From: Hysterangium stoloniferum
Lineage: Eukaryota > Basidiomycota > Agaricomycetes > Hysterangiales > Hysterangiaceae
NCBI GenBank assembly: GCA_015178975.1
Contig: WHVD01000089.1
Span: 286,461 to 350,460 of the forward strand
Length of the DNA: 64,000 nucleotides
Direction: 5' to 3'
Position numbers and translations under genes: made by a program. Positions 1-42,401 of the stretch are shown in pieces. Under the pieces are notes generated by a model. It did not search any database and was not told the origin of the DNA. It saw only the letters and a list, made by a program, of their open reading frames with translations. Positions within the stretch are counted from its first letter, which is position 1; each line of letters opens with the position of its first letter.

Positions 1-148
1 GGGAAAATACAATATCTATATGTGACAGACTGTTATAAGACCCAGGTTTGCCATCAGTTATATAAGCTGTTATAAGAGCACAAGTTGGCATCATAAGTCC
101 TTATATATATATATGTATATATAATCCATCATATAATACTAGACTATA

Positions 149-222
149 GGTCCAGTAGCTCAGTGGTTAAGAGCACCTGCATATAAAGCCAGGAGGTCCT
201 TGGTTCAATCCCAGGCTGGGTC
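149..222 (+). other. tRNA-like cloverleaf inside TRIM-t LTR
   Basis: The 74-nt segment folds as a tRNA. Acceptor GGTCCAG pairs with CTGGGTC (7 pairs, two G-U), D stem GCTC/GAGC, anticodon stem CCTGC with a one-base bulge in its 3' strand, 5-nt variable loop, T stem CTTGG/CCAGG around loop TTCAATC. An A box (TAGCTCAGTGG, 156-166) and a B box (GGTTCAATCCC, 202-212) are 35 nt apart, and TTTT at 228-231 would stop Pol III. The nominal anticodon is AUA. No CCA is encoded. Equivalent segments on the minus strand: 4806-4879, 5124-5197, 8301-8374, 8619-8692, 8937-9010, 10302-10375, 11362-11435, 21045-21119, 21364-21438, 22422-22495, 26200-26273; plus strand 472-545. Whether it is transcribed or aminoacylated is unknown. 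Confidence 0.85.
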
Positions 223-245
223 AATTCTTTTCTATGCCTTTAACA

Positions 246-257
246 GGTTATGGGCCC
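246..257 (+). promoter_or_regulatory. TRIM-t primer-binding site, half-tRNA (initiator Met) type
   Basis: GGTTATGGGCCC directly follows the LTR end. Its complement GGGCCCATAACC is the anticodon-arm sequence of eukaryotic initiator tRNA-Met. Drosophila copia and yeast Ty5 prime from this internal half-tRNA rather than from the tRNA 3' end. The same site is at the end of every TRIM-t interior here (minus copies end ...GGGCCCATAACC at 5100, 8595, 8913, 10595, 21340). Confidence 0.85.
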
Positions 258-300
258 CGTGAGCTTGGTGCGCTGCATAGGGTATAGACTAGATATTGAT

Positions 301-311
301 TTCAGGGGAAG
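301..311 (+). promoter_or_regulatory. TRIM-t polypurine tract
   Basis: TTCAGGGGAAG immediately precedes the downstream LTR (TGTTAG at 312), the position and composition of a plus-strand primer. It is unchanged in the other TRIM-t interiors. Confidence 0.8.
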
Positions 312-568
312 TGTTAGAAATGGGAAAATACAATATCTATATGTGACAGACTGTTATAAGACCCAGGTTTGCCATCAGTTATATAAGCTGTTATAAGAGC
401 ACAAGTTGGCATCATAAGTCCTTATATATATATATATGTATATATAATCCATCATATAATACTAGACTATAGGTCCAGTAGCTCAGTGGTTAAGAGCACC
501 TGCATATAAAGCCAGGAGGTCCTTGGTTCAATCCCAGGCTGGGTCAATTCTTTTCTATGCCTTTAACA

Positions 569-889: not shown

Positions 890-3800
890 CTAAGTCCTTA
901 TACCCATTCCATCGCGGCAAAATTGAACCTTGGGAGTAGATAGAGGCTTGGTTAGAATATCTGCAATTTGTTCTGCAGTAGGAATATAGGAAGGAGCAAT
1001 ACACTTGGCATTTACAGCATCCCTAAGCCAATAGTAGCGCAGGTCAAGATGTTTCATCCTTCCATGATGCTCAGGATTCTTAGCAACACTGATGGCAGAC
1101 TGGTTGTCAATGTGTAGAGTGGAGGGTTGATCAACTTGGTAGCCAAATTCACCTAGGATTTGCCGCATCCAGGCAATCTCCTTGCCAGCTTCTACAGCAG
1201 AGACAAATTCTGCTTCAGTTGTAGAAAGTGTGACAATACTTTGCAGTTTACTACTCCAGCCAATAGCACCTCCAGCCATCATAGTGACATAACCACCAGT
1301 GGATCTTCCAGAATCAATGCAATCACCATGAGCAGCATCAGTGTATGTGGTGAATAGTTCAGAGCCACATTTACCAGAGTAATGCAACTTGTAATCCAGT
1401 GTACCTTTTAGGTATCTGAACAAGTGCTTCACTGCTGTCCAATGCTTTGGTCCAGGATTGCCATTAAAACGTGCCAAGTAGGACACAGTATAAGCAATAT
1501 CTGGACGGGTCATAGTAGCCAGGTATTGTAAAGACCCAACAGCACTGAGATAAGGAACACTATGCATGAAATCCACCTCTGCAGCATTCTCAGGACCCAT
1601 TTCTTTGGAAAGAGATGTACCAGGTGTCATAGGTGTGAGAACTGGATGACAGTCAGACATGTTATAACGCTCAAGCATGTTGAGAATAAACTGTCGCTGA
1701 TCAAGAGTAAGGAGACACTTAGAGCGATCTCTGCCAACTCCCACACCAAGTAAATAAACAGTGGGTCCAAGATCACGGCATTTGAAATGCAGGGACAATT
1801 GCTTGACAGCTTTGTCAATGGCAAGAGTGGACTTGGATGCAAATGTAATATCATCAATGTAAATGGGTACAAAGATCTTCACCTCTCCATTTGAATAAAT
1901 GTAAACAGAGGTATCAGATTCAATTCGTTTGAACTCCATTTCAGTAAGTGCACCATGTAATTTGATGTTCCATTGACGAGATCCCTGCTTGAGACCATAA
2001 AGTGATTTCAAGAGTCTGAGAACCTTATTAGGACCTCCTTGATGGAAGCCTTCAGGTTGTCTCATATAGATTGTCTCATCAAGGTCACCATGGGTGAAAG
2101 CAGCAGAAATGTCAACAGAGCGCAAGTCCATGTCTTCAATGGCAGCTAGGGCCAGAATCAAACGCAGAGTGGCAGGTCTAAAAGTAGGTGCAAACACTTC
2201 ATTGTAGTCAATGCCAGGACGTTGTGAGTATCCTTTGGCAACAAGACGAGCTTTATAACGCTCAATGGTGCCATCTGCATTGTGTTTGACTTTAAACACC
2301 CAACCCGAACCAATTGCCTTTGCACCAACTGGGAGATCAACAAGTTCCCATGTCTTGTTTTCTACCAGTGTATTGTACTCTGCATAGATAGCTTCTTGCC
2401 ATTTATCTGCATCATCACCTTTCATAGCCTGCTTGTAGTTTTGTGGATCAGCAGTTGAAGCTGTTCCAACAAACTGTACTTCCTCATAATCAATGTCCTC
2501 ATCATCATCCTCAGCTAGAGCTGGAGCTGGTTGTACTTTCCACCATTCACCCGGTTGCTTTGAAACACGCTGAGAGCGACGAAGTGGTGGTTCTGGTGCA
2601 GGTGGAGGAGGCAGTTGAATGGGTTCTTCAACTCCAGGAGGAGGCAAAGGTGGTTCAGGAAGTGCAGGAACATGAGCAGGAGGTATAGGAATATGAGCAG
2701 GAGGTGCAGGAATATGAGTAAGAGGAACAGAAATATGATTATCCCCCTGTACTTCTGGCACAAATGAAGAAATGTCAGAGTGTGGTGTATTTGGGACAAG
2801 CCTGATATTAGGCATTGGTCCAGTAGTAGATAGACCAGGAAAGTGGCGTTCATCAAATACAGCCCGTTCAGAGATGATAAACTTCTTTGTAACAGGGTTG
2901 TAGAATTGCCAACCTTTGTATCCCACAGGATAGCCTAGAAAGAGGCATTTCTCCATGTGTGACTGAAGTGACTTCCTTTTGTCCTTTTGAATGTAAACAT
3001 AGGCAGTACACCCCCACACTCGCAAGTTGCTCACATCTGGTTTCTGCTTGTACCATTGCTCGTAGGGTGTAGTTTTAGGCAATGGTGCAGTAGGCAGACG
3101 ATTCCATACATAAACATAAGATGTCACAGCATGGTTCCAGAAAGAAGCAGGGATACGCGCCTCATGCATCATGGCAGTGACATGATCAGCCATAGTGCGA
3201 TTGGCTCTTTCTGCAACTCCATTCTGTTGAGGGCGATTGCGAGTAGTATGGCGGCGTACTATTCCACATTCATCTGTAAACTTGATAAAGGCATTTGACA
3301 TATACTCCTCCCCTTTGTCATCCTGCAGAGCTTTGACCTTGCAACCCAGAAGATTCTCAGCATAAGCTTTGTATCTCCTGAATGCTTCAAATGCATCACT
3401 CTTCCGTTTCAAGAACAGAACAGCTCGCAACTTGGTGCAATCATCAATAAAGGTTATCCAGTAGTGATAACCCTCAGTTGTTTGCACAGGAAGTGGTCCA
3501 TGTAGATCACTATGAATAAGTTCAAGTGGTGTCTGAGAATGACTTGGTGAGATAGGGAATGGACTAGCAGTCATTTTGCCAGCAAGGCAAGGTTCACAGA
3601 TGGGATCAGGCTGTTCCTTTGAGTCAAGGTTTAAGCCAACCACCAATCCTTCTCTGATCATCTTCTGGACATCAGCATAGCTGTGGTGTCCAAGACGGTG
3701 ATGCCAGAGATTGATATCAAAGGGAAGGGTGGAGACAGCACCAGCTTGCTCAATAATAGCTGCAGTGGCACCATTGAGGATACCTGCATTCTGTGCAGTA

Positions 3801-4624
3801 ACTCTGGCTGTAAACATAGTCTGGCCAGAGAGTTTGAAATGCATTGTTGTTCGATCAATGTGTATGAGTAGTCCTTTGTGCCTTGTGAGATAAAGACAAG
3901 ACAGTAGGTTACTGCGCAGTTGTGGTACATGCAAAACTCTTGTAAGCTCCACAGATCGCGATTTCCTTCCATTTATAACTGGGTTGAATACCACAGAACC
4001 AACTCCTGCAGAGTAGATAACAATATGATCTGCTAACTTGATTGGGACACATAATGGTGTGTAGTTACGCAGCCAATGACTATGAGGAGTCATATGACTA
4101 CTAGCACCTGTATCAGCAAGCCAATCATAGTCAGAACCATTCTGCAGGGTGGAGGAATCGGATGAGGAGAAAGCAAGTGCATTTCCACTATATTCAACAT
4201 TGTTCTGAGACATTGTCTTCTGAGGCCTATTTGGCTTTTTCTTCCCTTTAGCACGATTGGTAAGGACACTCTCCTGTGCTTCCTGCTGCTTCTTGATGAA
4301 GTGATGACACTTGTCCATAGTATGGTTGGTCATAGAGCAGAAAGTACATTTGAGAAATGCAGTGGATGCATTGCCCTTTACAGTAAGTGCAGATGCAACT
4401 GCAGGAGCTTGTGAAGCCCGATGACGGCGTTGTGACTCTTCTGTGACAAAAGCTTGTTGGATAGTAGCCTTGTCCAGCTTGTCCATCAGAAGGAGAGAAG
4501 AGGCAAAGTTGTCAAACTGCTCAGGAAGTGCCCTGATCATTGCCATTGATGCAAGTTCCTCATCAAGTTTGGCAAGATCTGTTAAATGTGACCTGTGACT
4601 TACTGTGACACGTGACACACACAA
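890..4624 (-). CDS. Copia-1 copy 1 gag(partial)-pol polyprotein
   Basis: An uninterrupted 1,244-codon Ty1/Copia frame. Visible in order: gag C-terminus; CCHC zinc knuckle (CTFC...H...C, about residue 93); aspartic protease DTGAS (about 168); gag-pre-integrase with LGHH; integrase with D, D and E at about 371, 435 and 470; reverse transcriptase with YIDD (about 920); RNase H to the C-terminus. The first 15 residues are read from LTR sequence (4580-4624), so the natural start and the N-terminal part of Gag are missing and no primer site lies between LTR and gag. GGEY of copy 2 is GEEY here, beside the second integrase Asp. Probably recently active but 5'-truncated. Strong assignment. Confidence 0.93.
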   Translation of the reverse strand: MCVSRVTVSHRSHLTDLAKLDEELASMAMIRALPEQFDNFASSLLLMDKLDKATIQQAFVTEESQRRHRASQAPAVASALTVKGNASTAFLKCTFCSMTNHTMDKCHHFIKKQQEAQESVLTNRAKGKKKPNRPQKTMSQNNVEYSGNALAFSSSDSSTLQNGSDYDWLADTGASSHMTPHSHWLRNYTPLCVPIKLADHIVIYSAGVGSVVFNPVINGRKSRSVELTRVLHVPQLRSNLLSCLYLTRHKGLLIHIDRTTMHFKLSGQTMFTARVTAQNAGILNGATAAIIEQAGAVSTLPFDINLWHHRLGHHSYADVQKMIREGLVVGLNLDSKEQPDPICEPCLAGKMTASPFPISPSHSQTPLELIHSDLHGPLPVQTTEGYHYWITFIDDCTKLRAVLFLKRKSDAFEAFRRYKAYAENLLGCKVKALQDDKGEEYMSNAFIKFTDECGIVRRHTTRNRPQQNGVAERANRTMADHVTAMMHEARIPASFWNHAVTSYVYVWNRLPTAPLPKTTPYEQWYKQKPDVSNLRVWGCTAYVYIQKDKRKSLQSHMEKCLFLGYPVGYKGWQFYNPVTKKFIISERAVFDERHFPGLSTTGPMPNIRLVPNTPHSDISSFVPEVQGDNHISVPLTHIPAPPAHIPIPPAHVPALPEPPLPPPGVEEPIQLPPPPAPEPPLRRSQRVSKQPGEWWKVQPAPALAEDDDEDIDYEEVQFVGTASTADPQNYKQAMKGDDADKWQEAIYAEYNTLVENKTWELVDLPVGAKAIGSGWVFKVKHNADGTIERYKARLVAKGYSQRPGIDYNEVFAPTFRPATLRLILALAAIEDMDLRSVDISAAFTHGDLDETIYMRQPEGFHQGGPNKVLRLLKSLYGLKQGSRQWNIKLHGALTEMEFKRIESDTSVYIYSNGEVKIFVPIYIDDITFASKSTLAIDKAVKQLSLHFKCRDLGPTVYLLGVGVGRDRSKCLLTLDQRQFILNMLERYNMSDCHPVLTPMTPGTSLSKEMGPENAAEVDFMHSVPYLSAVGSLQYLATMTRPDIAYTVSYLARFNGNPGPKHWTAVKHLFRYLKGTLDYKLHYSGKCGSELFTTYTDAAHGDCIDSGRSTGGYVTMMAGGAIGWSSKLQSIVTLSTTEAEFVSAVEAGKEIAWMRQILGEFGYQVDQPSTLHIDNQSAISVAKNPEHHGRMKHLDLRYYWLRDAVNAKCIAPSYIPTAEQIADILTKPLSTPKVQFCRDGMGIRT

Positions 4625-5472
4625 GTCTGAGGAAAGTTGTTGCTATTCAGGTCACTAACTACAAGCTTATATATGTTATACATCAGTAGGCTTGTCAGCT
4701 GTCATAAGTGACAGCTGGTTGACAGCTGGTTGACAGCTGTCATAAGTGACAGCTGATTGACAGCTTGAATGGAAACTGACAGTGTTAAAGGCATAGAAAA
4801 GAATTGACCCAGCCTGGGATTGAACCAAGGACCTCCTGGCTTTATATGCAGGTGCTCTTAACCACTGAGCTACTGGACCTATAGTCTAGTATTATATGAT
4901 GGATTATATATACATATATATAAGGACTTGTGATGCCAACTTGTGCTCTTATAACAGTTTATATAACTGATGGCAAGCCTGGGTCTTATAACAGTCTGTC
5001 ACATATAGATATTGTATTTTCCCATTTCTAACACTTCCCCTGAAATCAATATCTAGTCTATACCCTACGCAGCAGATGAAGCTGAACGGGGCCCATAACC
5101 TGTTAAAGGCATAGAAAAGAATTGACCCAGCCTGGGATTGAACCAAGGACCTCCTGGCTTTATATGCAGGTGCTCTTAACCACTGAGCTACTGGACCTAT
5201 AGTCTAGTATTATATGATGGATTATATATACATATATATAAGGACTTATGTTGCCAACTTGTGCTCTTATAACAGTTTATATAACTGATGGCAAACCTGG
5301 GTCTTATAACAGTCTGTCACATATAGATATTGTATTTTCCCATTTCTAACAGACAGCTGATTGACAGCTGTCATGGGAAATGAACTGGGAATATCCTGGA
5401 ACATGCTGGAAGCTTCTAGAAGGTTCTAGAAGGTTCCAGAAGGTTTTGGAGACAGTGGAGGCAGTTTTAACA
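4580..5472 (-). repeat. Copia-1 LTR shared by copies 1 and 2, with nested TRIM-t
   Basis: Starts TGTTAAATGTG (plus view) and ends CAGTTTTAACA. It is about 319 bp once the TRIM-t at 4783-5351 and one duplicated GACAG are removed. In minus orientation it is the 3' LTR of copy 2 (PPT at 5473 onward), and its other end abuts gag of copy 1 at 4579. The simplest reading is that copy 2 inserted into gag of copy 1. Confidence 0.85.
4783..5351 (-). mobile_element. TRIM-t, complete, TSD GACAG
   Basis: Full 569-bp element: LTR 4783-5033, interior 5034-5100 (67 bp), LTR 5101-5351. GACAG is duplicated at 4778-4782 and 5352-5356. Inserted in the Copia-1 LTR. Both LTRs keep the tRNA-like cloverleaf; they differ from each other at only a few sites, suggesting recent insertion. 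Confidence 0.95.
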
Positions 5473-5571: not shown

Positions 5572-8277
5572 CTAAGTCCTTATACCCATTCCATCACGGC
5601 AAAATTGAACCTTGGGAGTAGATAGAGGCTTGGTTAGAATATCTGCAATTTGTTCTGCAGTAGGAATATAGGAAGGAGCAATACACTTGGCATTTACAGC
5701 ATCCCTAAGCCAATAGTAGCGCAGGTCAAGATGTTTCATCCTTCCATGATGCTCAGGGTTCTTAGCAACACTGATGGCAGACTGGTTGTCAATGTGTAGA
5801 GTGGAGGGTTGATCAACTTGGTAGCCAAATTCACCTAGGATTTGCCGCATCCAGGCAATCTCCTTGCCAGCTTCTACAGCAGAGACAAATTCTGCTTCAG
5901 TTGTAGAAAGTGTGACAATACTTTGCAGTTTACTACTCCAGCCAATAGCACCTCCAGCCATCATAGTTACATAACCACCAGTGGATCTTCCAGAATCAAT
6001 ACAATCACCATGAGCAGCATCAGTGTATGTGGTGAATAATTCAGAGCCACATTTACCAGAGTAATGCAACTTGTAATCCAGTGTACCTTTTAGGTATCTG
6101 AACAAGTGCTTCACTGCTGTCCAATGCTTTGGTCCAGGATTGCAATTAAAACGTGCCAAGTAGGACACAGTATAAGCAATATCTGGACGAGTCATAGTAG
6201 CCAGGTATTGTAAAGACCCAACAGCACTGAGATAAGGTATACTACGCATGAAATCCACCTCTGCAGCATTCTCAGGACCCATTTCTTTGGAAAGAGATGT
6301 ACCAGGTGTCATAGGTGTGAGAACTGGATGACAGTCAGACATGTTATAACGCTCAAGCATGTTGAGAATAAATTGTCGCTGATCACGAGTAAGGAGACGC
6401 TTAGAGCGATCTCTGCCAACTCCCACACCAAGTAAATAAACAGTGGGTCCAAGATCACGGCATTTGAAATGCAGGGACAATTGTTTGACAGCTTTGTCAA
6501 TGGCAAGAGTGGACTTGGATGCAAATGTAATATCATCAATGTAAATGGGTACAAAGATCTTCACCTCTCCATTTGAATAAATGTAAACAGAGGTATCAGA
6601 TTCAATTCGTTTGAACTCCATTTCAGTAAGTGCACCATGTAACTTGATGTTCCATTGACGAGATCCCTGCTTGAGACCATAAAGTGATTTCAAGAGTCTG
6701 AGAACCTTATTAGGACCTCCTTGATGGAAGCCTTCAGGTTGTCTCATATAGATTGTCTCATCAAGGTCACCATGGGTGAAAGCAGCAGAAATGTCAACAG
6801 AGCGCAAGTCCATGTCTTCAATGGCAGCTAGGGCCAGAATCAAACGCAGAGTTGCAGGTCTAAAAGTAGGTGCAAACACTTCATTGTAGTCAATGCCAGG
6901 ACGTTGTGAGTATCCTTTGGCAACAAGACGAGCTTTATAACGCTCAATGGTGCCATCTGCATTGTGTTTGACTTTAAACACCCAACCCGAACCAATTGCC
7001 TTTGCACCAACTGGGAGGTCAACAAGTTCCCATGTCTTGTTTTCTACCAGTGTATTGTACTCTGCATTTATAGCCTCTTGCCATTTATCTGCATCATCAC
7101 CTTTCATAGCCTGCTTGTAGTTTTGTGGATCAGCAGTTGAAGCTGTTCCAACAAACTGTACTTCCTCATAATCAATGTCCTCATCATCATCTTCAGCTAG
7201 AGCTGGAGCTGGTTGTACCTTCCACCATTCACCAGGTTGCTTTGGAACACGCTGAGAGCGACGAAGCTGTGGTTCTGGTGCAGGTGGAGGAGGTAGTTGA
7301 ATGGGTTCAGGAAGTGCAGGAATCTGAGCAGGAGGTGCAGGAATATAAGCAGGAGGTGCAGGAATATGAGTAGGAGGGACAGAAATATCATTATCCCTCT
7401 CTACTTCTGGCACAAATAAAGGAATGTCAGAGTTTGGTATATTTGGGAAAAGCCTAATATTAGGCATTGGTCCAGTAGTAGATAGACCAGGAAAGTGGCG
7501 TTCATCAAATACAGCCCGTTCAGAGATGATAAACTTCTTTGTAACAGGGTTGTAGAATTGCCAACCTTTGTATCCCACAGGATAGCCTAGAAAGAGGCAT
7601 TTCTCCATGTGTGACTGAAGTGACTTCCTTTTGTCCTTTTGAATGTAAACATAGGCAGTACACCCCCACACTCGCAAGTTGCTCACATCTGGTTTCTGCT
7701 TGTACCATTGCTCATAGGGTGTAGTTTTAGGCAATGGTGCAGTAGGTAGACGATTCCATACATAGACATAAGATGTCACAGCATGGTTCCAGAAAGAAGC
7801 AGGCATACGCGCCTCATGCATCATGGCAGTGACATGATCAGCCATAGTGCGATTGGCTCTTTCTGCAACTCCATTCTGTTGAGGGCGATTGCGAGTAGTA
7901 TGGCGGCGTACTATTCCACATTCATCTGTAAACTTGATAAAGGCATTTGACATATACTCCCCCCCTTTGTCATCCTGCAGAGCTTTGACCTTGCAACCAA
8001 GAAGATTCTCAGCATAAGCTTTGTATCTCCTGAATGCTTCAAATGCATCACTCTTCCGTTTCAAGAACAGAACAGCTCGCAACTTGGTGCAATCATCAAT
8101 AAAGGTTATCCAGTAGTGATAACCCTCAGTTGTTTGCACAGGAAGTGGTCCATGTAGATCACTATGAATAAGTTCAAGTGGTGTCTGAGAATGACTTGGT
8201 GAGATAGGGAATGGACTAGCAGTCATTTTGCCAGCAAGGCAAGGTTCACAGATGGGATCAGGCTGTTCCTTTGAGTC
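5572..8277 (-). pseudogene. Copia-1 copy 2 pol, 5'-truncated
   Basis: An open frame of about 900 codons nearly identical to copy 1, from the C-terminal half of the gag-pre-integrase region through integrase (DDKGGEY, E in GVAERAN), reverse transcriptase (YIDD) and RNase H to the same C-terminus. Gag, zinc knuckle and protease are missing because the coding sequence is cut at 8277 by the TRIM-t array. The frame reads a few codons into the TRIM (to 8289), which are not part of the protein family. The proline-rich linker between integrase and RT is shorter than in copy 1. No stop codon interrupts the retained part. Confidence 0.9.
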
Positions 8278-9164
8278 TGTTAAAGGCATAGAAAAGAATT
8301 GACCCAGCCTGGGATTGAACCAAGGACCTCCTGGCTTTATATGCAGGTGCTCTTAACCACTGAGCTACTGGACCTATAGTCTAGTATTATATGATGGATT
8401 ATATATACATATATATAAGGACTTATGTTGCCAACTTGTGCTCTTATAACAGTTTATATAACTGATGGCAAACCTGGGTCTTATAACAGTCTGTCACATA
8501 TAGATATTGTATTTTCCCATTTCTAACACTTCCCCTGAAATCAATATCTAGTCTATACCCTACGCAGCAGATGAAGCTGAACGGGGCCCATAACCTGTTA
8601 AAGGCATAGAAAAGAATTGACCCAGCCTGGGATTGAACCAAGGACCTCCTGGCTTTATATGCAGGTGCTCTTAACCACTGAGCTACTGGACCTATAGTCT
8701 AGTATTATATGATGGATTATATATACATATATATAAGGACTTGTGATGCCAACTTGTGCTCTTATAACAGTTTATATAACTGATGGCAAGCCTGGGTCTT
8801 ATAACAGTCTGTCACATATAGATATTGTATTTTCCCATTTCTAACACTTCCCCTGAAATCAATATCTAGTCTATACCCTACGCAGCAGATGAAGCTGAAC
8901 GGGGCCCATAACCTGTTAAAGGCATAGAAAAGAATTGACCCAGCCTGGGATTGAACCAAGGACCTCCTGGCTTTATATGCAGGTGCTCTTAACCACTGAG
9001 CTACTGGACCTATAGTCTAGTATTATATGATGGATTATATATACACATATATAAGGACTTATGTTGCCAACTTGTGCTCTTATAACAGTTTATATAACTG
9101 ATGGCAAACCTGGGTCTTATAACAGTCTGTCACATATAGATATTGTATTTTCCCATTTCTAACA
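8278..9164 (-). mobile_element. TRIM-t tandem array (three LTRs, two interiors)
   Basis: LTRs 8278-8528, 8596-8846 and 8914-9164 alternate with 67-bp interiors 8529-8595 and 8847-8913. The flanks do not match: GAGTC in Copia-1 pol on the left, GAAAA in Gyp-A integrase on the right. The array is therefore a recombination product between TRIMs that had inserted in two different elements. Confidence 0.92.
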
Positions 9165-10278: not shown

Positions 10279-10642
10279 TGTTAAAGGCATAGAAAAGAAT
10301 TGACCCAGCCTGGGATTGAACCAAGGACCTCCTGGCTTTATATGCAGGTGCTCTTAACCACTGAGCTACTGGACCTATAGTCTAGTATTATATGATGGAT
10401 TATATATACATATATATAAGGACTTATGTTGCCAACTTGTGCTCTTATAACAGTTTATATAACTGATGGCAAACCTGGGTCTTATAACAGTCTGTCACAT
10501 ATAGATATTGTATTTTTCCATTTCTAACACTTCCCCTGAAATCAATATCTAGTCTATACCCTATGCAGCGCACCAAGCTCACGGGGCCCATAACCTGTTA
10601 AATGTGACCTGTGACTTACTGTGACACGTGACACATTTAACA
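10279..10642 (-). mobile_element. Hybrid TRIM: TRIM-t 3' LTR and interior with a 47-bp Copia-1-like 5' LTR, TSD CAACC
   Basis: A TRIM-t LTR (10279-10529) and interior (10530-10595, with PPT and half-tRNA primer site) are followed not by a second TRIM LTR but by a 47-bp block (10596-10642) with inverted ends TGTTAAATGTG/CACATTTAACA. On the minus strand that block is the first 7 and last 40 bases of the Copia-1 LTR. The unit as a whole is flanked by CAACC at 10274-10278 and 10643-10647, so it integrated as one element. Confidence 0.88.
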
Positions 10643-11243: not shown

Positions 11244-13640
11244 ATGCTCCATTCCAACAAAACAAGCAAGTCCTCCCTAAGTTCAAAAAGGTCCCACGAG
11301 CCCCGACAGCCAGTACATCCACGACCGGCGGGGGATTCTGTTAAAGGCATAGAAAAGAATTGACCCAGACTGGGATTGAACCAAGGACCTCCTGGCTTTA
11401 TATGCAGGTGCTCTTAACCACTGAGCTACTGGACCTATAGTCTAGTATTATATGATGGATTATATATACATATATATAAGGACTTATGATGCCAACTTGT
11501 GCTCTTATAACAGTTTATATAACTGATGGCAAGCCTGGGTCTTATAACAGTCTGTCACATATAGATATTGTATTTTCTCATTTCTAACAGATTCATCACC
11601 TGCGTGCCTCGTACAGACAATGTCGAGAGCAATCGGGGTACCCAAGAATCAACCCCCCTGTCGACTTTCTCCTTTGGTGATGAGCCAGGGGGAAATACCG
11701 GTACGGATTGGAGCAAGCCGTTAGGCCCCTCCGTCAGACCGTCATCTGAGGAAGTCGCTGCTATCATGCGGAAGCAGGAAATGTTTATGGAAGAACACAA
11801 CGCAAGGAGGCTCACCTGCAAAAGAGAAAGGCATGCTGAGTATAGAAGTCAACAGGAGGCGAGGGGAGCAAGAGAAGGAGTCTCCTCCAAGTGACAGCGG
11901 CGTGAGTACAGAGCGCAATTCAGAAACAGAGCTTCTGCGCCGATCCTTCCCCCCCCAGGAGAGAAATGGGCCGACTTTGCGGAGACCGATGATAGTGAGG
12001 GTGGGACGCCTTGCATTAGGACGACGGGAACCAAGAGCTGGAAGGAGAAGGAGGGTACCATCTTTTATGACTGGGAACTACTTCGACGCATTAAGTTGCA
12101 ACGAATAGTTCTTACCCGAGGGGATGGTCAAATGTTGCCCCAGTGAGAAAAGGGATACCGTAGGGGACCAATTGATTTTTCCTCGGATGAGGATGAGGAG
12201 GAAGACGAGAACAGGAATGGTGCATATAGCATCCGATATCTGGGAGAGGATTGCCATGAAGGGTTCCTCCTCCCGTCGAAAGTTCGCTTCGTAACCAGTG
12301 ACCCCAACCAAAGACAAACACGGAGACTGTCATCCAGAGTATGGAGGGGTCACCGCCCTAGTCAACAGTCACTGGAACGTGAACCTTCCACAATTCCGGT
12401 CCCACGTCTTTTGCCAATGTCGAAGCCCCTTCCCATCATTCACTCAACACATACTCCCTCAGCCCCGATTCTAACGCCTCATCTACCTCTCTCCCCAAAA
12501 GCTGTACCGGTCCCAACCTCACTTAGGATGTCGAGGCCCCCTCCCATCCTTCACCTGGCACACACTCCCTCAGCCCAACGTGAACCTTCCCCGATTCCAG
12601 TCCCACACCTTTCACCAACGTCAAGGCCCCTTCCCATCCTCCTTCTGGCACACACTCCCTCAGCCCCGATTCTGGCGCCTTGTCTCTCTCCCTCCCTGAA
12701 AGCTATACCGGTCCTGACCCCACTTCCGCCGTCACCGGGTATCCCTCCCGACTCTCCATATTCATATTGCATGTCCTTAGGTAGCCCTATCCAGGATCTT
12801 CCACCAGAGCGAATGGATGTCGATTTGGACCCTCCTACACCGGACGTCATCGTTCCCATTGCAAGCAGAAAGGCGAAGGAGATGCAGAAAGCCACCACTC
12901 CTCTCCGAGAGCGATCCCCTATTCCCGTCCTCGACAGCCCGCTTCCCCCCACTGAGCCCGTATCCACAACTCTCTGGATGCGAGTAGCTGTCAACTACCC
13001 TTCTGAACAGTTTCCTGTCAGAAGGGTGCTATCACTGCTCATGCCAGTACTTCAGCAACCGGTCCTTCAAGGGAGCCTTAAGGGTTGTTGCGGTCTGGCT
13101 CCATTGTCGGAGATAATGGAGGATTTCTATCTCTCATTCGAGGATCTCGCAGAGGGGAAGAACTTTGCACGAGCAGCACAGGAGATTAAACTCTCTATGT
13201 TCCGGCACATCATAGTGGAGTTTCACCGTCTGCCCCCAGACTCAGTGAGTGTCCTCTCTATTGCTGGCTTAGTAGATTTACTCGAGGCCCTCATCCTGAC
13301 GCCTCCCACAGAGGCCACCACGCAGCCACATGTTCCTGCCCCGCTACCCGCGTTTTCGTTTCCCCTCCCCAATGCTCCTCTTGCGTAAATTTCCGCTCCG
13401 CCGGTTAGTGTCTGCGCAGTCATTCGTTGCAGAAAGAAAGCCTACAGACAATGGGCCGACTCCTTGTACAGGAATTCTAGTGATTTGGCTTGGGCGAGAA
13501 TAGCCAAATCCTTCAGAGTAAAAAGGGAATGATGGGGAAACATCATTTTGGACCTTGGGGGATCCTCACAGGAAGCTTGGGGCGGCGTCCCAGATGCTCT
13601 TCGACACCTTGTATAGCACATCCCTTCGAACTGGGGGGCA
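11244..13640 (+). pseudogene. Gyp-A ORF3 (L2 subfamily), unknown function, broken
   Basis: A third gene between pol and the 3' LTR. I do not recognise a known domain. Blocks shared with the other ORF3 copies: PKFKKVPRAP near the N-terminus, FYDWELLRRIKLQ, DCHEGFLLP...TSDPNQR...RVWRGHRP, a long proline-rich repeat region (12400-12740), MDVDLDPP, then a C-terminal domain from WMRVAVNYPSEQF to LSMFRH...GLVDLLE. A solo TRIM-t (11339-11589) interrupts it and several frameshifts and stops are present. About 710 codons without the insertion. No signal peptide or membrane span is seen, which argues against an envelope protein. Confidence 0.7.
11339..11589 (-). repeat. TRIM-t solo LTR, TSD GATTC
   Basis: Single 251-bp LTR flanked by GATTC at 11334-11338 and 11590-11594, inserted in ORF3. 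The tRNA-like T stem carries a C-to-A change (CCCAGAC for CCCAGCC in plus view) that removes one pair. Confidence 0.93.
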
Positions 13641-20970: not shown

Positions 20971-22193
20971 TGTGAAGAGTCAATAGATTCTGACCGTTCA
21001 ATATACGAAGTATAGTGTTTATGTTAAAGGCATAGAAAAGAATTGACCCAGCCTGGGATTGAACCAAGGACCTCCTGGCTTTTATATGCAGGTGCTCTTA
21101 ACCACTGAGCTACTGGACCTATAGTCTAGTATTATATGATGGATTATATATACATATATATAAGGACTTATGATGCCAACTTGTGCTCTTATAACAGCTT
21201 ATATAACTGATGGCAAACCTGGGTCTTATAACAGTCTATCACATATAGATATTGTATTTTCCCATTTCTAACACTTCCCCTGAAATCAATATCTAGTCTA
21301 TACCCTACGCAGCAGATGAAGCTGAACGGGGCCCATAACCTGTTAAAGGCATAGAAAAGAATTGACCCAGCCTGGGATTGAACCAAGGACCTCCTGGCTT
21401 TTATATGCAGGTGCTCTTAACCACTGAGCTACTGGACCTATAGTCTAGTATTATATGATGGATTATATATACATATATATAAGGACTTATGATGCCAACT
21501 TGTGCTCTTATAACAGCTTATATAACTGATGGCAAACCTGGGTCTTATAACAGTCTATCACATATAGATATTGTATTTTCCCATTTCTAACAGTTTATTC
21601 AACTACTATTAGCAGGTATTGACCGTTCAGTGCAATACTGTAGATTGCTAGACTGACAGTACTAGCAAGGAGACATGCTACGCGTCACAAGAGCAACTAT
21701 ATAGTTGCTCTTGATAGCTAGAATGAGAGAATGAAAGAGTTGACCTTTACGGTACCACTCGCAGCTAGATGTAAAATAGATAATCAACGAGAGGCTGGAT
21801 ATCTAAAGTAAAGAGATGGTAGCGCGAGTCAACTATAGTGTTGAGGAGCGCAAAGACCTTAGAGTGAAACTTGACCTTCGCGGTTCGAGTTCAAAGTCTG
21901 TTAGTATGCGAGAAAACACTACCTTTATAGGTAACTGAGATGTTACCCTTGACACCTCTTGCTATTCGACGTCTGGGTCGTTTACGAGGTGGTGTCTGCT
22001 GGGTAAAAAGATATCTGTCGTTTGGCGCTGAGAGCGCCCATAGGTATGTATACACAAGACTTCGAACTAAGAAATACAGGTATGCTCGAAGGATATAGGG
22101 AATTAAAGAAAAGGAATAGAAACTAGATAATAAAGTACTATAATGTGCATATTAATCTACTGTCCAATTATGCATATATGCATACCCTTCACA
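20971..22193 (-). repeat. L2-type LTR with nested TRIM-t; 3' LTR of a deleted Gyp-A
   Basis: About 647 bp after removing the TRIM (21022-21592) and one GTTTA. In minus orientation it follows the PPT (GTGCCCCCCAG in plus view at 22194), so it is the 3' LTR of the deleted element at 22194-23028. The 26-bp palindrome is kept here with its centre changed from GTAC to ATAT. Confidence 0.85.
21022..21592 (-). mobile_element. TRIM-t, complete, TSD GTTTA
   Basis: 571 bp: LTR 21022-21273, interior 21274-21340, LTR 21341-21592. GTTTA at 21017-21021 and 21593-21597. Both LTRs carry one extra base in the anticodon loop of the tRNA-like segment, so the change was copied to both LTRs and defines a subfamily. 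Confidence 0.95.
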
Positions 22194-22246: not shown

Positions 22247-22649
22247 TGTTAGAAATGGGAAAATACAATATCTATATGTGACAGACTGTTATAAGACCCA
22301 GGTTTGCCATCAGTTATATAAACTGTTATAAGAGCACAAGTTGGCAACATAAGTCCTTATATATATGTATATATAATCCATCATATAATACTATAACCTG
22401 TTAAAGGCATAGAAAAGAATTGACCCAGCCTGGGATTGAACCAAGGACCTCCTGGCTTTATATGCAGGTGCTCTTAACCACTGAGCTACTGGACCTATAG
22501 TCTAGTATTATATGATGGATTATATATACATATATATAAGGACTTATGATGCCAACTTGTGCTCTTATAACAGCTTATATAACTGATGGCAAACCTGGGT
22601 CTTATAACAGTCTGTCACATATAGATATTGTATTTTCCCATTTCTAACA
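22247..22649. repeat. TRIM-t LTRs in head-to-head inverted arrangement
   Basis: A plus-strand LTR fragment (22247 to about 22393, TGTTAGAAATG to ...ATACTA) is joined to the last bases of a TRIM interior (ATAACC) and a complete minus-strand LTR (22399-22649). Flanks differ (CTGGG and ATAAC), so this is a rearrangement, not a simple insertion. Confidence 0.85.
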
Positions 22650-24642: not shown

Positions 24643-27064
24643 GGAAGGAGGGAGGATGGTTCTTAAACAAGAAGTGTTCTCATCATTCCTCAAAGCGCTC
24701 CGCATGCACGATGACGCATTACAAATCCTTCACGTCATACTCGGTGGGGATCACATCGTCTCCAAAGTCGACTACCAGTATATATACATTCGGATGCTGG
24801 AGGAGTCTCTTAACGGGATTACTCGGAATTCTTCGTTTGCGTATTTCACTTTAAGGGGTCGGTTAAGGCGAAATCAGAGAAGACTCGATAAGATGGTTTT
24901 GGAAGTGCTTTACCCTTATGGTGATTCCATCCAGGTACCCGATTCACCCATCTCCACAACAAGTTCATTTGTTCGTACCCTGAATGGATCTCCCAACACT
25001 CGTTTCCTTCTTTCGCTCAATCGTCCCATTATTTTGCAAGACTTCCCATCTGATATGAGGATGCAGGTGGCGGAACGTCTTCAGGAAAAAGGAATTGGAA
25101 TATGCATCCCCCTCTATCAGCCTCAACCTCGTCGACCTTTGAATACGGTCAAAATCGAGAGAGGGATCGCGACAGAACCTAGCCCTACCCCCCATCAGGA
25201 AAGTCACCGCTCTCACATCGTGTTCGAACGAATCCCTGGCAATACGAATGTGGGTGATGAACCAATTACGACTAGAAATTGATCAGTCGCCAACAGGGGT
25301 CGACCGTCTTTATCCACTGCATTCACCGAGGGTATAGCTGGTCAGGTTGCTAGTCGAGGATCGCTGAATCCAGTCGATCCTCGCCATTCCCTGCTGATCT
25401 CCTCCAACCCTTTTCTGCCATAAGGAGGACCTCCTAGTAATTCATCTGGGAGTTCTAGTACCTCAAGCTATGGAGGGAATTCGGGACGTGGGGGGTGTCA
25501 CGGTAGAGTACCTAACCCTCCCTTTCAAACTCCGATGCAGCCTCGAGCCAGCGCGCCTATCGATGACTTATCTAAGGATAAAAGGATCGCTCTTAACACC
25601 AACGACATCAATATCAAATGGTCAGACCTTCCCGAATATGATAGAACTCAATCCAAGGCGTTGGATTACATCATGGACATTATGAGCCTCTCGGAGATCT
25701 CTGACTCCATGAGTACATTGTTGGGAGTCGCTCTGCCAAGACAACTCACCAGCGGTGCTAAGATCTGGTGGAGCACCCTAGACCATGAACATCGCACTGA
25801 ATTTAGTCGATCTCACGGATCGTTTCTTTGGGGCATCGTAAAAGGATTACTAGGAACTCGTTGGCGCAAATCCTTGGCTCTAGAATGGGAAGCCATGAAG
25901 TTTTGACAGGCCGGTCACAATCATGAGACACCCGTTCATTACATTCAGTGAAGGGTCAAGCTCTATCGATTCTTGTACGGGTTCCACCAAAACCGGAAGG
26001 ACGAAATGCACAGACTTATCCTGACACTACCCACGGAATGGCTTTATCTTCTACAGGAACAACCTATCGACAATATCATGAGCCTACAGACTTACGCAAA
26101 CAATTTACAAGAGGCTCTGATTAACGCTTGGGTTCAAACACATCGAGAACATAATCGGTTTCAGAAACCCAGAGTCTGTTAAAGGCATAGAAAAGAATTG
26201 ACCCAGCCTGGGATTGAACCAAGGACCTCCTGGCTTTATATGCAGGTGCTCTTAACCACTGAGCTACTGGACCTATAGTCTAGTATTATATGATGGATTA
26301 TATATACATATATATAAGGACTTATATTGCCAACTTGTGCTCTTATAACAGTTTATATAACTGATGGCAAGCCTGGGTCTTATAACAGTCTGTCACATAT
26401 AGATATTGTATTTTCCCATTTCTAACAGAGTCATGATCGCCAAGCAAGACAAGTCGGATCCCTGGCATGAGGAGGAGCACTCTGGAAAAATCGACTCCAC
26501 TAATCGAAGCCACGCCCTCCTCGGCAAACTCGAGGATAAAACCATCCCTAGGAGATCGAATGCTAAGCAGGGTAAGAAACACGGCGAGTTCTTTTTCAAA
26601 TGAAGTGACAAGAAAAGCATCGCCAAGCCTCCAAGGAGTGTTGGATTTGTGGGAGCTTAGAGCATTTCAAGATCGACTGCCCTCATGTGGGCAGGATGTC
26701 GCACTATGTCTCTATTAACAAGTGCTCCACGCAGAACCCAGCGGAGGATCAAAGGGCTTATGAAACGGTTTATGGATTAAGTGTACAGGGACAAGTACAT
26801 AACATTGATGAGGAATCAATTTTCATTTCTGTCTACCTTCCTCAGCCAGAGGACAACATCATTTCAGACGTGAAAGCATCCTCGAATGAGAATGAGACAT
26901 CACAAGTTTATGTTTCTATATCAGACCATGATTTTCTTGAGAAAGGAGACTGGCTAGACACTCATCGTCAGAACCGTGAAGGTCTGACTGAGATGAGAGC
27001 TTTTTCGCGACCTGAACCTCCCACCATTGAGGAAATCGTCGACGAGGATGCATTTGCGAACTGA
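24643..27064 (+). pseudogene. Gyp-A copy 1 gag, 5'-truncated and broken
   Basis: Starts inside Gag (GGRMVLKQEVF) right after the L1 LTR; the N-terminal 190 or so residues are missing. Retained are the conserved LHVILGGDH and YFTLRGRLR blocks, a Ser/Gly/Asn-rich linker, the capsid-like LPEYDRTQSKALDYIMD to LPTEWLYLL region, and a CCHC zinc knuckle (CWICGSLEHFKIDC, about 26640-26681). A solo TRIM-t interrupts it at 26177. In-frame stops at 25280, 25421, 25904, 25950 and 26602 are mostly TGA where copy 2 has CGA. Confidence 0.85.
26177..26427 (-). repeat. TRIM-t solo LTR, TSD GAGTC
   Basis: 251 bp with GAGTC at 26172-26176 and 26428-26432. Gyp-A copy 2 has the uninterrupted empty site (CCCAGAGTCATGATCAC, about 59114-59130), which proves the boundaries. 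Confidence 0.97.
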
Positions 27065-39318: not shown

Positions 39319-39898
39319 GATTGTTCTGGAACAACAATGTCGCAACAGGGGGGCAGTATAGGGGTATAGGAGAGGGCACCTTATGGGATCGTCATCTATG
39401 GCCTGCAAGAGCATGCTAACATCTGCATCACCAGTCTCGCCAATGGAACAGTCGAGAGCTGGGTGCAGTGCATGAGTGCATAGGCGCAACTGTGCGGGAG
39501 TGTGGGTGCTGGCGTATGGCTGCAGGTGTATGGGTACAAGCATATGGGTGCGGTGCATGGATGCAGGTGTGGCAGCATGCAAACAACTGCGTCACCAGTC
39601 TCGCCAATGAAATGGTCAAGAGCTGGATGCAGTGGGCGAGCATGCTGCGAGAGTGCGCAAGTGTGGCGCGTGGGTATGGTTTGAAGACGCGGGTGTGCGC
39701 AGGTCCGGTGCGTGGGCGTGGTTTGAAGGCGCAATTGCGTGGGTGCGCAGGTGTGGCGCGTGGGCATAGTTTGAAGACGCCGGTGCGCTGCGTGACACGT
39801 GAATGTGCGCGCACGCGCGACGCGTGAAGGTGCACGCGCGCGACGCGTGAAAGTGCGCACGCGCGACACGTGAATGTGCGTGCACGCGACGAGTGAAG
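39319..39898 (+). repeat. Non-coding interior of gag-only element with imperfect GC-rich repeats
   Basis: After the gag stop comes sequence with a duplicated block (CATCACCAGTCTCGCCAATG at about 39427 and the variant at about 39590) and GTGCGCGC-rich imperfect repeats from about 39640. No conserved protein is seen. Confidence 0.6.
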
Positions 39899-39906
39899 GT
39901 GCGTGC

Positions 39907-40077
39907 GTGTGGATGTAGTGTGCGTGTGGATGTAGTGCGCGTGTGGATGTAGTGCGCGTGTGGATGTAGTGCGCGTGTGGATGTAGTGCGCGTGTGGATG
40001 TAGTGCGCGTGTGGATGTAGTGCGCGTGTGGATGTAGTGCGCGTGTGGATGTAGTGCGCGTGTGGATGTAGTGCGCA
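39907..40077 (+). repeat. 17-bp minisatellite, about ten copies
   Basis: Unit GTGTGGATGTAGTGCGC, nearly perfect. Alternating purine-pyrimidine GCGCGTGTG could adopt Z-DNA. It is open in all minus-strand frames only because of the repeat. Confidence 0.92.
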
Positions 40078-40080
40078 TGT

Positions 40081-40440
40081 GCGGGAGGTGGTGCGTGCGC
40101 ACGACGCATGGAGGTGGTGCGTGCGCACGACGCGTGGAGGCGGTGCGTGCACACGACGCGTTGAGGTGGTGCGTGCGCACGATGTGTGGAGGTGGTGTGT
40201 GCGCGCGGCGTGTGGAGGTGGTGTGTGCGCGCGGCATGTGGTGGTGCATGGACATGGGACATGGCGCGTGCACACGGTGTGTGGAGGTGCATGGACTTGC
40301 TGCGTGCGCGTGGCGTGTGGAGGTGCGTGGATGTGGTGTGTGCGCGCGGCGTGTGGATGCGTGTGGATGTGGTGCGCGCGCACGGCGCGTGGATGAAGGT
40401 GTGCGCACGCGGCTCATGGATGTGGGCACGTCGCACGGGT
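40081..40440 (+). repeat. 26-bp minisatellite, degenerating
   Basis: Six or more units of GAGGTGGTGCGTGCGCACGA plus CGCGTG, each containing the self-complementary CGTGCGCACG, then diverged units to about 40440. Confidence 0.88.
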
Positions 40441-42401
40441 GCACAAGTGCAGTACGAAGGTACACAAGTGCGGTACGAAGGCGCGGTTTGCGGGCATATG
40501 GTGCGGGCATATTGGTGTGGCACACGAACATGGGCGCGTGCGTGCAGTACATGGATGGGGGTGCGCTGCGTAAGTGAAGACGTATAAGGATAAGGAGTGG
40601 GAGGCAGACCTGGAGAGACAGGGTGCAGAGAAGATCGATTTGTCGACTATCCCACCCCGTCCACCCGCTGAGCAACAGCCGTCCTCGTCCTCCTTTTCAG
40701 CCACTGCACCACCCTTCTCAAAATGGCACCTTTTGCTATTCTCGAGTCTGACAAATTCGAGGGTGTGCAGCGCGAATGTGCAAGTATGGGTGCGTAAAGT
40801 GCGGTCCATTGGTGCAGTTCGAGGGTGCATTGTGTGGGTTCGAGGGTGCACTGTGCGGGTGCATAGTGCATGCTAGGGTTCAAAGGGCGACTGGGCCAAT
40901 GGAAACAGAGGGTACTGCAGAGCAAGGCAACATAAGGGCGTGGATTTGAGTCACTGGGGAGATACCCTCCAAGTGACGAGCGATTGGGGCTGTGGGCCTA
41001 CTTTCAAAGGACCATCCCATGGTGCTGTGTAGAGTCAGTGCTATAATATCTTACCCAGTCCCTCCAACAACAAGGAGATGGTGTGAGGTCGACAGTCGAG
41101 TACGAAACAGAGTAAAGGACTGACTTCCAAAACTTGTGGACACATGTGGACACAGGGCCGTGTCACCTCATAACGACGCCTTCACACCATCTCAACCTTC
41201 AACGTCATCTACTCTTAGCCTTTCCCTCTGCTAAAGCTTCATACTGAAATAGTCGAAGCTCTGTTCTTCTAAGCCTTTCAACTTACAGGTTCAGCACACA
41301 CTGTTCAACAAGGTCTTTCCTCAAGGATAAAGCTTCGCACTGAAATAGTCGAAGCTTTGCCTTTCTGACCTTCGCAACTTACAGCGTGCAATGTTTTTCA
41401 ACAAGGTATCCATGGGCGACAGATCTTCGATTTCACCTCCACCTGGTGCTCTTAGCATCTTCGATGCCTACAAAATACACTCATTGTTCGCAGTCAAATC
41501 CACCCTTTCCTCTCCACCCCTCCACTTTACCTTCGTTGGCAGTCGACTAGCTACAAAAAGGTTCAATAACTTGCAGGGCAACACCTAGGTCAGAGAACTA
41601 TGTGACCCAACCTCAGTGCTGTATTTGGGTCCATCATCACAATTGTACTGAACTCAGTCAATTTTGTGATTTTTTCTTTTTTCCTCCGGACTCACCTACC
41701 TACTTGAAGCATTACTGGACACTTTCTAGACCTGCCATGGGCTAGACCTTTCGGGAACACAGACTGCAACCTAACTGTGCACAATAATGGTTAATTTGCG
41801 AGATCGTGGTGGAATCACAATATCGCAAAGTGGGGAGCGGTATAGGGGGTATAGGGTATACATCCTGGCATGCTGCTAGGTCCCATAGACTAGCAGCATG
41901 GAAAGATCCTAATCCCAAGTCTTACACTATCTCGCCACAGCAAAGCATCATAAACCTCCTCCAGTACTCATTTAAGGAGGAGGAGATCCCGATGGACTCT
42001 AATGATAGCTTACCCTCCTAACCCCAAGATGCACTGCCCAACGAGTTACATGACAGTCTGTCTGCCTACAGAACATCTACTATGAGGAATGCCTCGTGTC
42101 CTGGAAGGAGACAATGTGGCAGTGTCTAGAAGGCTATCAAGTAGTCCATTTGCTGTTCGAGGACTGAAGGAGTGCTCGACTAGGGACTGAAGGAAAAGAA
42201 TGGATCTATTTTTTTCCCTTCCCTTCCCTCCCTTTTTCCACATCGACATCTTCCCTTACTGCTCCTAAACCCACCAACCTCTTTTCAAATACTGGGGTCT
42301 TGGCACCTTGCGTTTTGGGGGGCTTCACACAAGACACCTGGGGGGCATCCCCGAAGCTTTCCAGAACTTCGTATAGCACATCCCTTCGAACTGGGGGGCA
42401 C
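40441..42401 (+). other. 3' interior of gag-only element, degenerate
   Basis: No intact gene. A duplicated block of about 98 bp period (AAGCTTC...GTCGAAGCTNTG at 41233 and 41331) contains a short inverted repeat. The last 110 bp (GGCTTCACACAAGACACCTG to the PPT) match the very end of Gyp-A ORF3 and its purine tract, suggesting that the element retains the 3' end of a Gyp-A-like ancestor. Confidence 0.55.

Follow-up and report, generated by a model that had tools for sequence, protein, structure and literature searches.

What is a tRNA-like gene doing inside the LTRs of an element that is too short to code for the proteins of its own transposition? This question is raised by the first 568 nucleotides of a 64,000-nucleotide stretch of the Hysterangium stoloniferum genome (contig WHVD01000089.1, positions 286,461 to 350,460), referred to here as the window. 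The element at 1-568 is a TRIM, with two LTRs around a 66-bp interior and a tRNA-like segment in each LTR. With a probability of about two in three, its family, which we call F1, represents a TRIM family of the Helenus kind, with Copia proteins as its probable mover and a predicted Pol III promoter in the tRNA-like segment. A preliminary description had taken such an element to be undescribed, which fails, as tRNA-containing TRIMs, fungal ones included, were already named Helenus by Kojima 2024 (PMC10886601). Its idea of a tRNA counterpart of Cassandra in a fungus holds.

Structurally, the element lies on the forward strand. The 5' LTR occupies 1-245 of the window; its first 10 bases lie outside, and its left end was read in L001. 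The tRNA-like segment of this LTR spans 149-223, with an A box, TAGCTCAGTGG, at 156-166 and a B box, GGTTCAATC, at 202-210, and is followed at 228-231 by TTTT, a candidate weak Pol III terminator. The interior (246-311) is of a length at which the coding of transposition proteins is impossible. It opens with a primer-binding site (PBS) of 14 nt at 246-259 and closes with a polypurine tract (PPT), TTCAGGGGAAG, at 301-311, which adjoins the 3' LTR. The 3' LTR (312-568, 257 bp) runs from TGTTA to TAACA and contains a second tRNA-like segment at 472-546, with its A box at 479-489 and B box at 525-533; the TTTT at 551-554 is a candidate 3' end of the genomic RNA. The same target duplication (TSD), GTTAT, stands on both sides, the flank beyond the window having been read. 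The junction of AGGGGAAG with a following TGTTA is found at 5 further places in the window besides 301-311/312. Some measures first given for the family need correction. An LTR length of about 251 bp is right for most F1 copies, but the LTRs of the element at 1-568 have 255 and 257 bp, with a longer TA run. The segment is 75 nt long, and 76 nt in two copies, rather than 74 nt, and the TTTT behind it is present but has its first T at the fifth base past the segment (551-554).

ARAGORN called 13 tRNAs in the window, all of them at the 13 segment-bearing LTR places, and the Rfam model RF00005 scored 13/13 segments at 41.0-48.6 bits, above its gathering score of 29; both segments of the element at 1-568 reach 48.6 bits. 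A tRNA-model check, which had been proposed for the LTRs, thus came out in favor of the segment, and together with the LTR comparison these calls bear out a fungal TRIM with an A- and B-box tRNA-like unit in each LTR. A chance fit to tRNA was rejected, with 0 tRNAs called by ARAGORN in 5,000 mononucleotide-shuffled LTRs. Additionally, the 31-nt A-box half of F1, allowing at most 3 mismatches, has 277 matches in the genome (111 Mb, 554 contigs), and a control with the reversed pattern has 0.

Compared by BLAST with the window, the F1 LTR finds 14 places, as first counted. The tRNA-like part, which had been ascribed to all of them, is present in 13; the 14th (22247-22393), a 147-nt fragment in inverted orientation, lacks it. 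The other copies all lie on the reverse strand. Two-LTR copies are found at 4783-5351 (TSD CTGTC) and at 21022-21592 (TSD TAAAC), the latter with an extra A in the anticodon loop. Solo LTRs lie at 11339-11589 (TSD GAATC) and 26177-26427 (TSD GACTC). An array of 3 LTRs and 2 interiors at 8278-9164 has no TSD. A 3' LTR with interior is present at 10279-10595, where the 5' LTR is replaced by a short near-palindrome (10596-10642, reverse strand) ending in TGTTA and TAACA; this near-palindrome was rejected as a repeat family, as the genome contains a single occurrence of its left 24 nt. At 22247-22649, an LTR (22399-22649), 5 interior bases and the inverted fragment stand together without a TSD, which looks like a product of autointegration or strand switching. 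Two Copia frames in the window, at 890-4642 and 5572-8352 on the reverse strand, lie in stretches about 97% alike over 2.96 kb. F1 copies adjoin these frames beside TGACAGCTG-type repeats, and words like these repeats also flank F1 copies in L033, L038 and L039. At 39396-40696 (reverse strand), three overlapping long frames run over a His/Thr/Arg-rich repeat and are probably a tandem repeat rather than a gene.

A wider scan of 42 sources (the window, L028-L048 and L092-L111) gave 64 groups of F1 LTRs, of which 50 were scorable after the removal of 6 without both ends and 8 abutting interior remnants. An exact 5-bp TSD flanks 37 of these 50 insertions (17/21 solo LTRs, 16/24 two-LTR copies and 4/5 arrays of 3-7 LTRs), and a chance duplication is expected at 1 in 1,024 per site with even base use. 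The two-LTR copies measure 564-580 bp with interiors of 66-67 bp, and the LTRs of the pair are identical in 8/24; one of the 24, in L097, with its LTRs 103 bp apart, is probably two separate LTRs. The expected build of a complete copy, with two LTRs, a 66-67-bp interior, primer site, purine tract and 5-bp duplications, was confirmed. Arrays flanked by a single TSD contain 7 LTRs in L029 (at C534:47.7-50 kb), 5 in L030, 4 in L034 and 3 in L031, and represent either growth by unequal exchange after insertion or the integration of a multimer. In two of 79 aligned F1 LTRs, the first half of the tRNA-like segment is duplicated over 38 nt.

The primer site connects F1 with Copia elements. The sequence right after the 5' LTR, GGTTATGGGCCCCG, is the exact complement, over 14 nt, of the anticodon arm of the tRNA-iMet of this genome, which was found at three places. 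Since the site fits the anticodon arm, the primer would be a 5' half of tRNA-iMet, of about 39 nt by hand count. Half-tRNA priming is the mode of Drosophila copia and of Ty5, and is the mode predicted for F1. The tRNA-like part itself was rejected as the primer of reverse transcription, as the PBS fits the host tRNA-iMet and the 3' end of the segment differs. The junction of AACA with GGTTATGGGCCCC has 952 matches in the genome with at most 1 mismatch, with 0 for the control. From the 100 matches listed of these 952, 20 junctions away from F1 clusters were hand-picked and read: 4 belong to a second tRNA-bearing family, F2, and 16 to other elements, and in 15 of these 16 the sequence before the junction is repeated downstream. 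The Copia reverse transcriptase domain RVT_2 was found in 3/3 tested of the 16 loci (pieces of L051, L052 and L057), and is also present in a Copia frame within the window, beside which no such PBS junction occurs besides those of F1. The PBS of F1 is thus common to Copia elements of its host. L052 additionally has the tract GAGGGGAAG, followed by TGTTAG, in common with F1. Beyond the junctions, the 16 loci have no LTR or interior similarity to F1; a named Copia partner was rejected, the loci having given only junctions, chance short matches and one nested copy of a third family, F3.

F2 and F3 extend the system. F2 has a 128-bp LTR, in which the tRNA-like segment begins after 34 bp, and a 155-bp interior. 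Its set of 23 loci comprises 24 groups, from which 1 without both ends and 1 abutting interior were dropped; a TSD is present in 21/22 scorable insertions, and identical LTRs in 7/10 two-LTR copies. Rfam called a tRNA in 5/6 submitted F2 loci (46.8 bits), and an older-looking copy, L072 (the same place as L053), was called by neither Rfam nor ARAGORN. F3 was found nested inside a Copia element at L054, and has an LTR of 245 bp and an interior of 168 bp, as read from one full and one partial LTR. Its PBS, TGGTAGCAACTCCA, is complementary to the 3' terminus, CCA included, of the tRNA-iMet that F1 would also use, and this junction has 21 genome matches with at most 2 mismatches against 0 for the control. 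F2 and F3 have a 54-bp interior stretch in common at 94%, and are about 82% alike over 94 bp around the tRNA-like part, while their LTRs align nowhere else. From these two similarities, F2 and F3 look like sister families using opposite parts of one primer tRNA.

Could the segment be a working tRNA gene carried as cargo? Both ARAGORN and Rfam call a tRNA in copies of F1, F2 and F3, which is what such a gene would give. The score of F1, 48.6 bits, falls within the range of 62 scored genome hits (34.5-73 bits), so the score alone is indecisive. The cargo explanation is extremely unlikely in view of the rest. F1 has an irregular anticodon arm, in which a single extra base turns a nominal tRNA-Tyr into a nominal tRNA-Leu; F2 and F3 have diverged in precisely this arm, and anticodon and body disagree in many Helenus families (Kojima 2024, PMC10886601). 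Additionally, the lowest-energy RNA fold of the F1 segment is not a cloverleaf, as the anticodon and T arms are missing from it and only the acceptor and D stems form. The "full tRNA cloverleaf" of the preliminary description therefore stands as a fit to tRNA models and not as the best fold of F1. The lowest-energy fold of the F2 segment is a cloverleaf. When F1 and F2 are compared at 16 acceptor, D and T stem pairs, with the anticodon arm left out, all are standard in both; 6 are changed on both sides, 3 on one side and 7 are unchanged. The claim that these changes prove selection on the fold was dropped, as the two families may have separate tRNA ancestors. No parent tRNA gene was named, the best identity over aligned positions among 12 host genes being 77% for F1 and 81% for F2.

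On a further explanation, a SINE or tRNA gene once inserted in the LTR, and the tRNA-like part is its passive remnant. An origin by SINE insertion has in fact been proposed (PMC10886601), but the halves that contain the boxes vary less than the rest of the LTR, both within F1 and between F2 and F3, which makes a passive leftover very unlikely. In 79 F1 LTRs, taken from the window and from loci picked by whole-element similarity, differences per aligned cell amount to 0.0022 in the tRNA-like part, 0.0150 in the main U3 and 0.0058 in the tail. A faster decay of the tRNA-like stems than of the rest of the LTR, which would have spoken against a functional segment, is therefore not seen in these LTRs; the segment varies less. 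Variants common to at least two copies, which track the active lineage, number 2 over the 75 tRNA-like sites against 21 over the 176 other sites (Fisher p 0.018), whereas variants private to one copy, a record of decay since insertion, are equally dense in both (9 over 75 against 18 over 176 sites, p 0.66). The direct test of shared against private variants gives p 0.046, or 0.079 without the TA run, and is modest, as array copies are not independent. The trend is the same in another 24 F1 LTRs, which come from loci selected by an exact match to the A-box half. Both box words are present in 104/104 F1 LTRs, including the 24 from loci chosen on that exact half.

The F2 loci were also selected on the A-box half, and in both selections the figures for this half are biased. 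In the unselected anticodon and T-arm parts of F2, 14 differences occur in 1,794 cells, against 51 in 2,184 in the U3 and tail, and the B box word is intact in 34/39 F2 LTRs. F2 and F3 disagree at 2/26 positions of the A-box half and 1/26 of the T-arm half (3/52 in total), while about half of the positions of the anticodon arm differ, as judged by eye. With the boxes kept and the anticodon arm diverged, this is the pattern expected of a promoter and not of a decoding tRNA. The tRNA-like segment thus probably serves as a promoter.

How could a Pol III promoter of this kind yield a full template for transposition? It had been argued that the TTTT before the LTR end bars Pol III from copying the element. 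This objection fails, as both LTRs carry TTTT and T4 is a weak terminator in budding yeast (PMC9278858); a leak at the first and a stop at the second would give the RNA that is needed. In that yeast, T5 is the smallest terminator that works in vitro, T6 is efficient, T4 is weak, and a hairpin at most 7 nt upstream makes T4 moderately efficient (PMC9278858). From the weakness of T4, a partial stop at the first LTR with a second chance at the next is a natural prediction; as T4 beside a folded RNA is moderately efficient, the leakage could be low. We infer by analogy that these yeast figures would carry over to Hysterangium stoloniferum.

The T runs of the families and of the host differ in length. 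Within the final 22 bp, T runs reach a maximum of T4 in 103 of 104 F1 LTRs, of T6 in the remaining one, and of T4 in 39/39 F2 LTRs. Of 37 F2 tails, 23 read TTAT where the segment-proximal T4 would stand and retain a single T4, close to the LTR end; 13 keep both T4s and 1 has only that near the segment. Host tRNA genes were represented by 22, with 19 picked from 62 scored plus the 3 iMet genes; this set includes six related tRNA-Lys copies, and L024 and L025 are of doubtful type. A run of T5 or longer lies within 40 nt in 19/22 of them, and the first run is at least T5 in 18/22. In L018, L025 and the iMet gene L069, no run goes beyond T4.

We propose that Pol III would be loaded through the A and B boxes and would start near the tRNA-like 5' end of the 5' LTR. 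Frequently it would terminate at the weak T4 lying a few bases further on and release a short tRNA-like RNA; occasionally it would read through the interior and stop at the T4 of the 3' LTR, giving a template RNA. Such a template would have R (about 83-93 nt, the tRNA-like part plus trailer) at both ends, a U5 of 14 nt and a U3 of about 150-160 nt, and R at both ends would suit strand transfer and reverse transcription by a Copia enzyme acting in trans. A stricter version, in which transcription is by Pol III alone, T4 is tuned relative to the T5-T8 of most host tRNA genes read, RNA output is dual and the sister families F2 and F3 recently switched, within one genome, between the anticodon arm and the 3' end of a single initiator tRNA, is put forward tentatively, at somewhat less than even odds.

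The main competing proposal assigns the genomic RNA to Pol II, transcribing from the upstream TA-rich box, while the tRNA-like part would be retained for a different role, for example TFIIIC binding, the steering of integration or packaging. F1 does have a TA-rich run, located 28-50 bp ahead of its tRNA-like part (28-44 bp in 251-bp LTRs), and Copia elements are taken to use Pol II, in part following PMC10886601. The TA run leaves a dual or Pol II promoter possible for F1, and could instead bind TBP for Pol III; a TATA-like word lies between -27 and -32 in 5/19 non-iMet host tRNA genes. The crowding of F1 copies in few contigs would also suit a steering role. Among the first 100 exact matches listed in contig order, those of F1 (to C223) fall in 21 contigs, with 74 in six, against 50 contigs for those of F2 (to C219); this difference could reflect different targeting or different ages. 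F1 is crowded on contigs C35, C14, C60, C109, C137 and C182. The strongest case against a Pol II promoter in U3 comes from the layout of F2, where little space for one is left in the 34 bp preceding the tRNA-like part, yet F2 copies show the TSDs and identical LTR pairs given above. We therefore consider transcription by Pol II rather unlikely, and prefer the Pol III promoter predicted in the tRNA-like segment.

The features found in F1 agree with those of Helenus. F1 has two LTRs, a length below about 1 kb and no transposition proteins, an A- and B-box tRNA-like sequence in both LTRs, a PBS and a PPT at the interior ends with the PBS matching the iMet anticodon arm, 5-bp TSDs (37/50 in F1, and 21/22 in F2), and a PBS common to host Copia elements (RVT_2 in 3/3 tested loci). 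Helenus likewise has the tRNA-like segment in both LTRs, with conservation around the A and B boxes, and its fungal PBS is mostly directed at the iMet anticodon loop and sometimes at the iMet 3' end, which compares with F1 and F3 respectively. Its 5-bp TSD in fungi, its Copia link and its several families per genome are all seen here, as are, in F1, its solo LTRs with TSD and its tandem arrays (known from a zebrafish family) (PMC10886601). F1 thus fits the Helenus features that were compared, a likeness of described features; for F2 and F3 the comparison covered part of them. Pol III transcription is expected for Helenus but is unproven in Kojima 2024 (PMC10886601). T-run terminators of Helenus seem to be untreated there: in the searched text, "terminat" occurs only for Cassandra and in general element text, and TTTT does not occur. 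Among literature records that consist mostly of titles and abstract openings, no other report of a tRNA-containing TRIM was recognised, save a meeting report citing Kojima 2024.

Cassandra (PMC7215508) likewise bears a Pol III gene in each LTR and forms tandem arrays of LTR and interior, and has multi-unit transcripts that read through LTRs. Cassandra is 5S rRNA-derived and belongs to plants, whereas F1 is tRNA-derived and fungal. Ajax (Kojima 2024, PMC10886601) also has a small-RNA-derived segment in its TRIM LTRs, but this is a partial 5S sequence, and its hosts are nemerteans, unlike F1. A 5S rRNA-derived sequence is absent from the F1 LTR, as tRNA is the sole Rfam family that passes its gathering score in the window. 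The tRNA-derived SINEs (SINE2) have an A- and B-box unit like that of F1. SINEs are without LTRs, PBS, PPT or a fixed 5-bp TSD, and have a variable TSD and a LINE-type tail; SINE membership was rejected for F1, since LTRs and 5-bp TSDs are present.

New here are the iMet PBS match common to Copia, the families F2 and F3, the low variation of the boxes and the T4 runs compared with host runs of T5 and longer. One fungal genome thus holds a many-copy Helenus system, comprising three families with two ways of priming from a single tRNA, and the mapping of RNA ends in it could test whether an LTR retrotransposon can be run by Pol III. Annotators should be warned that the 13 ARAGORN "tRNA genes" of the window are retrotransposon parts, and that patterns of the tRNA-like half match the genome at 277 places for F1, 243 for F2 and 124 for F3.

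Two minor observations concern other RNA genes. Intron-containing tRNA-Lys(CTT) genes with similar upstream sequence (L014, L015, L017, L020, L021 and L023) occur in many copies, several of them on C112 and C68, and may represent a further mobile unit or a gene cluster that was amplified. L113, the sole single-mismatch match to the ITS3 primer site, lies in rDNA, which reads as that of a basidiomycete of Agaricomycetes type, and is one base off.
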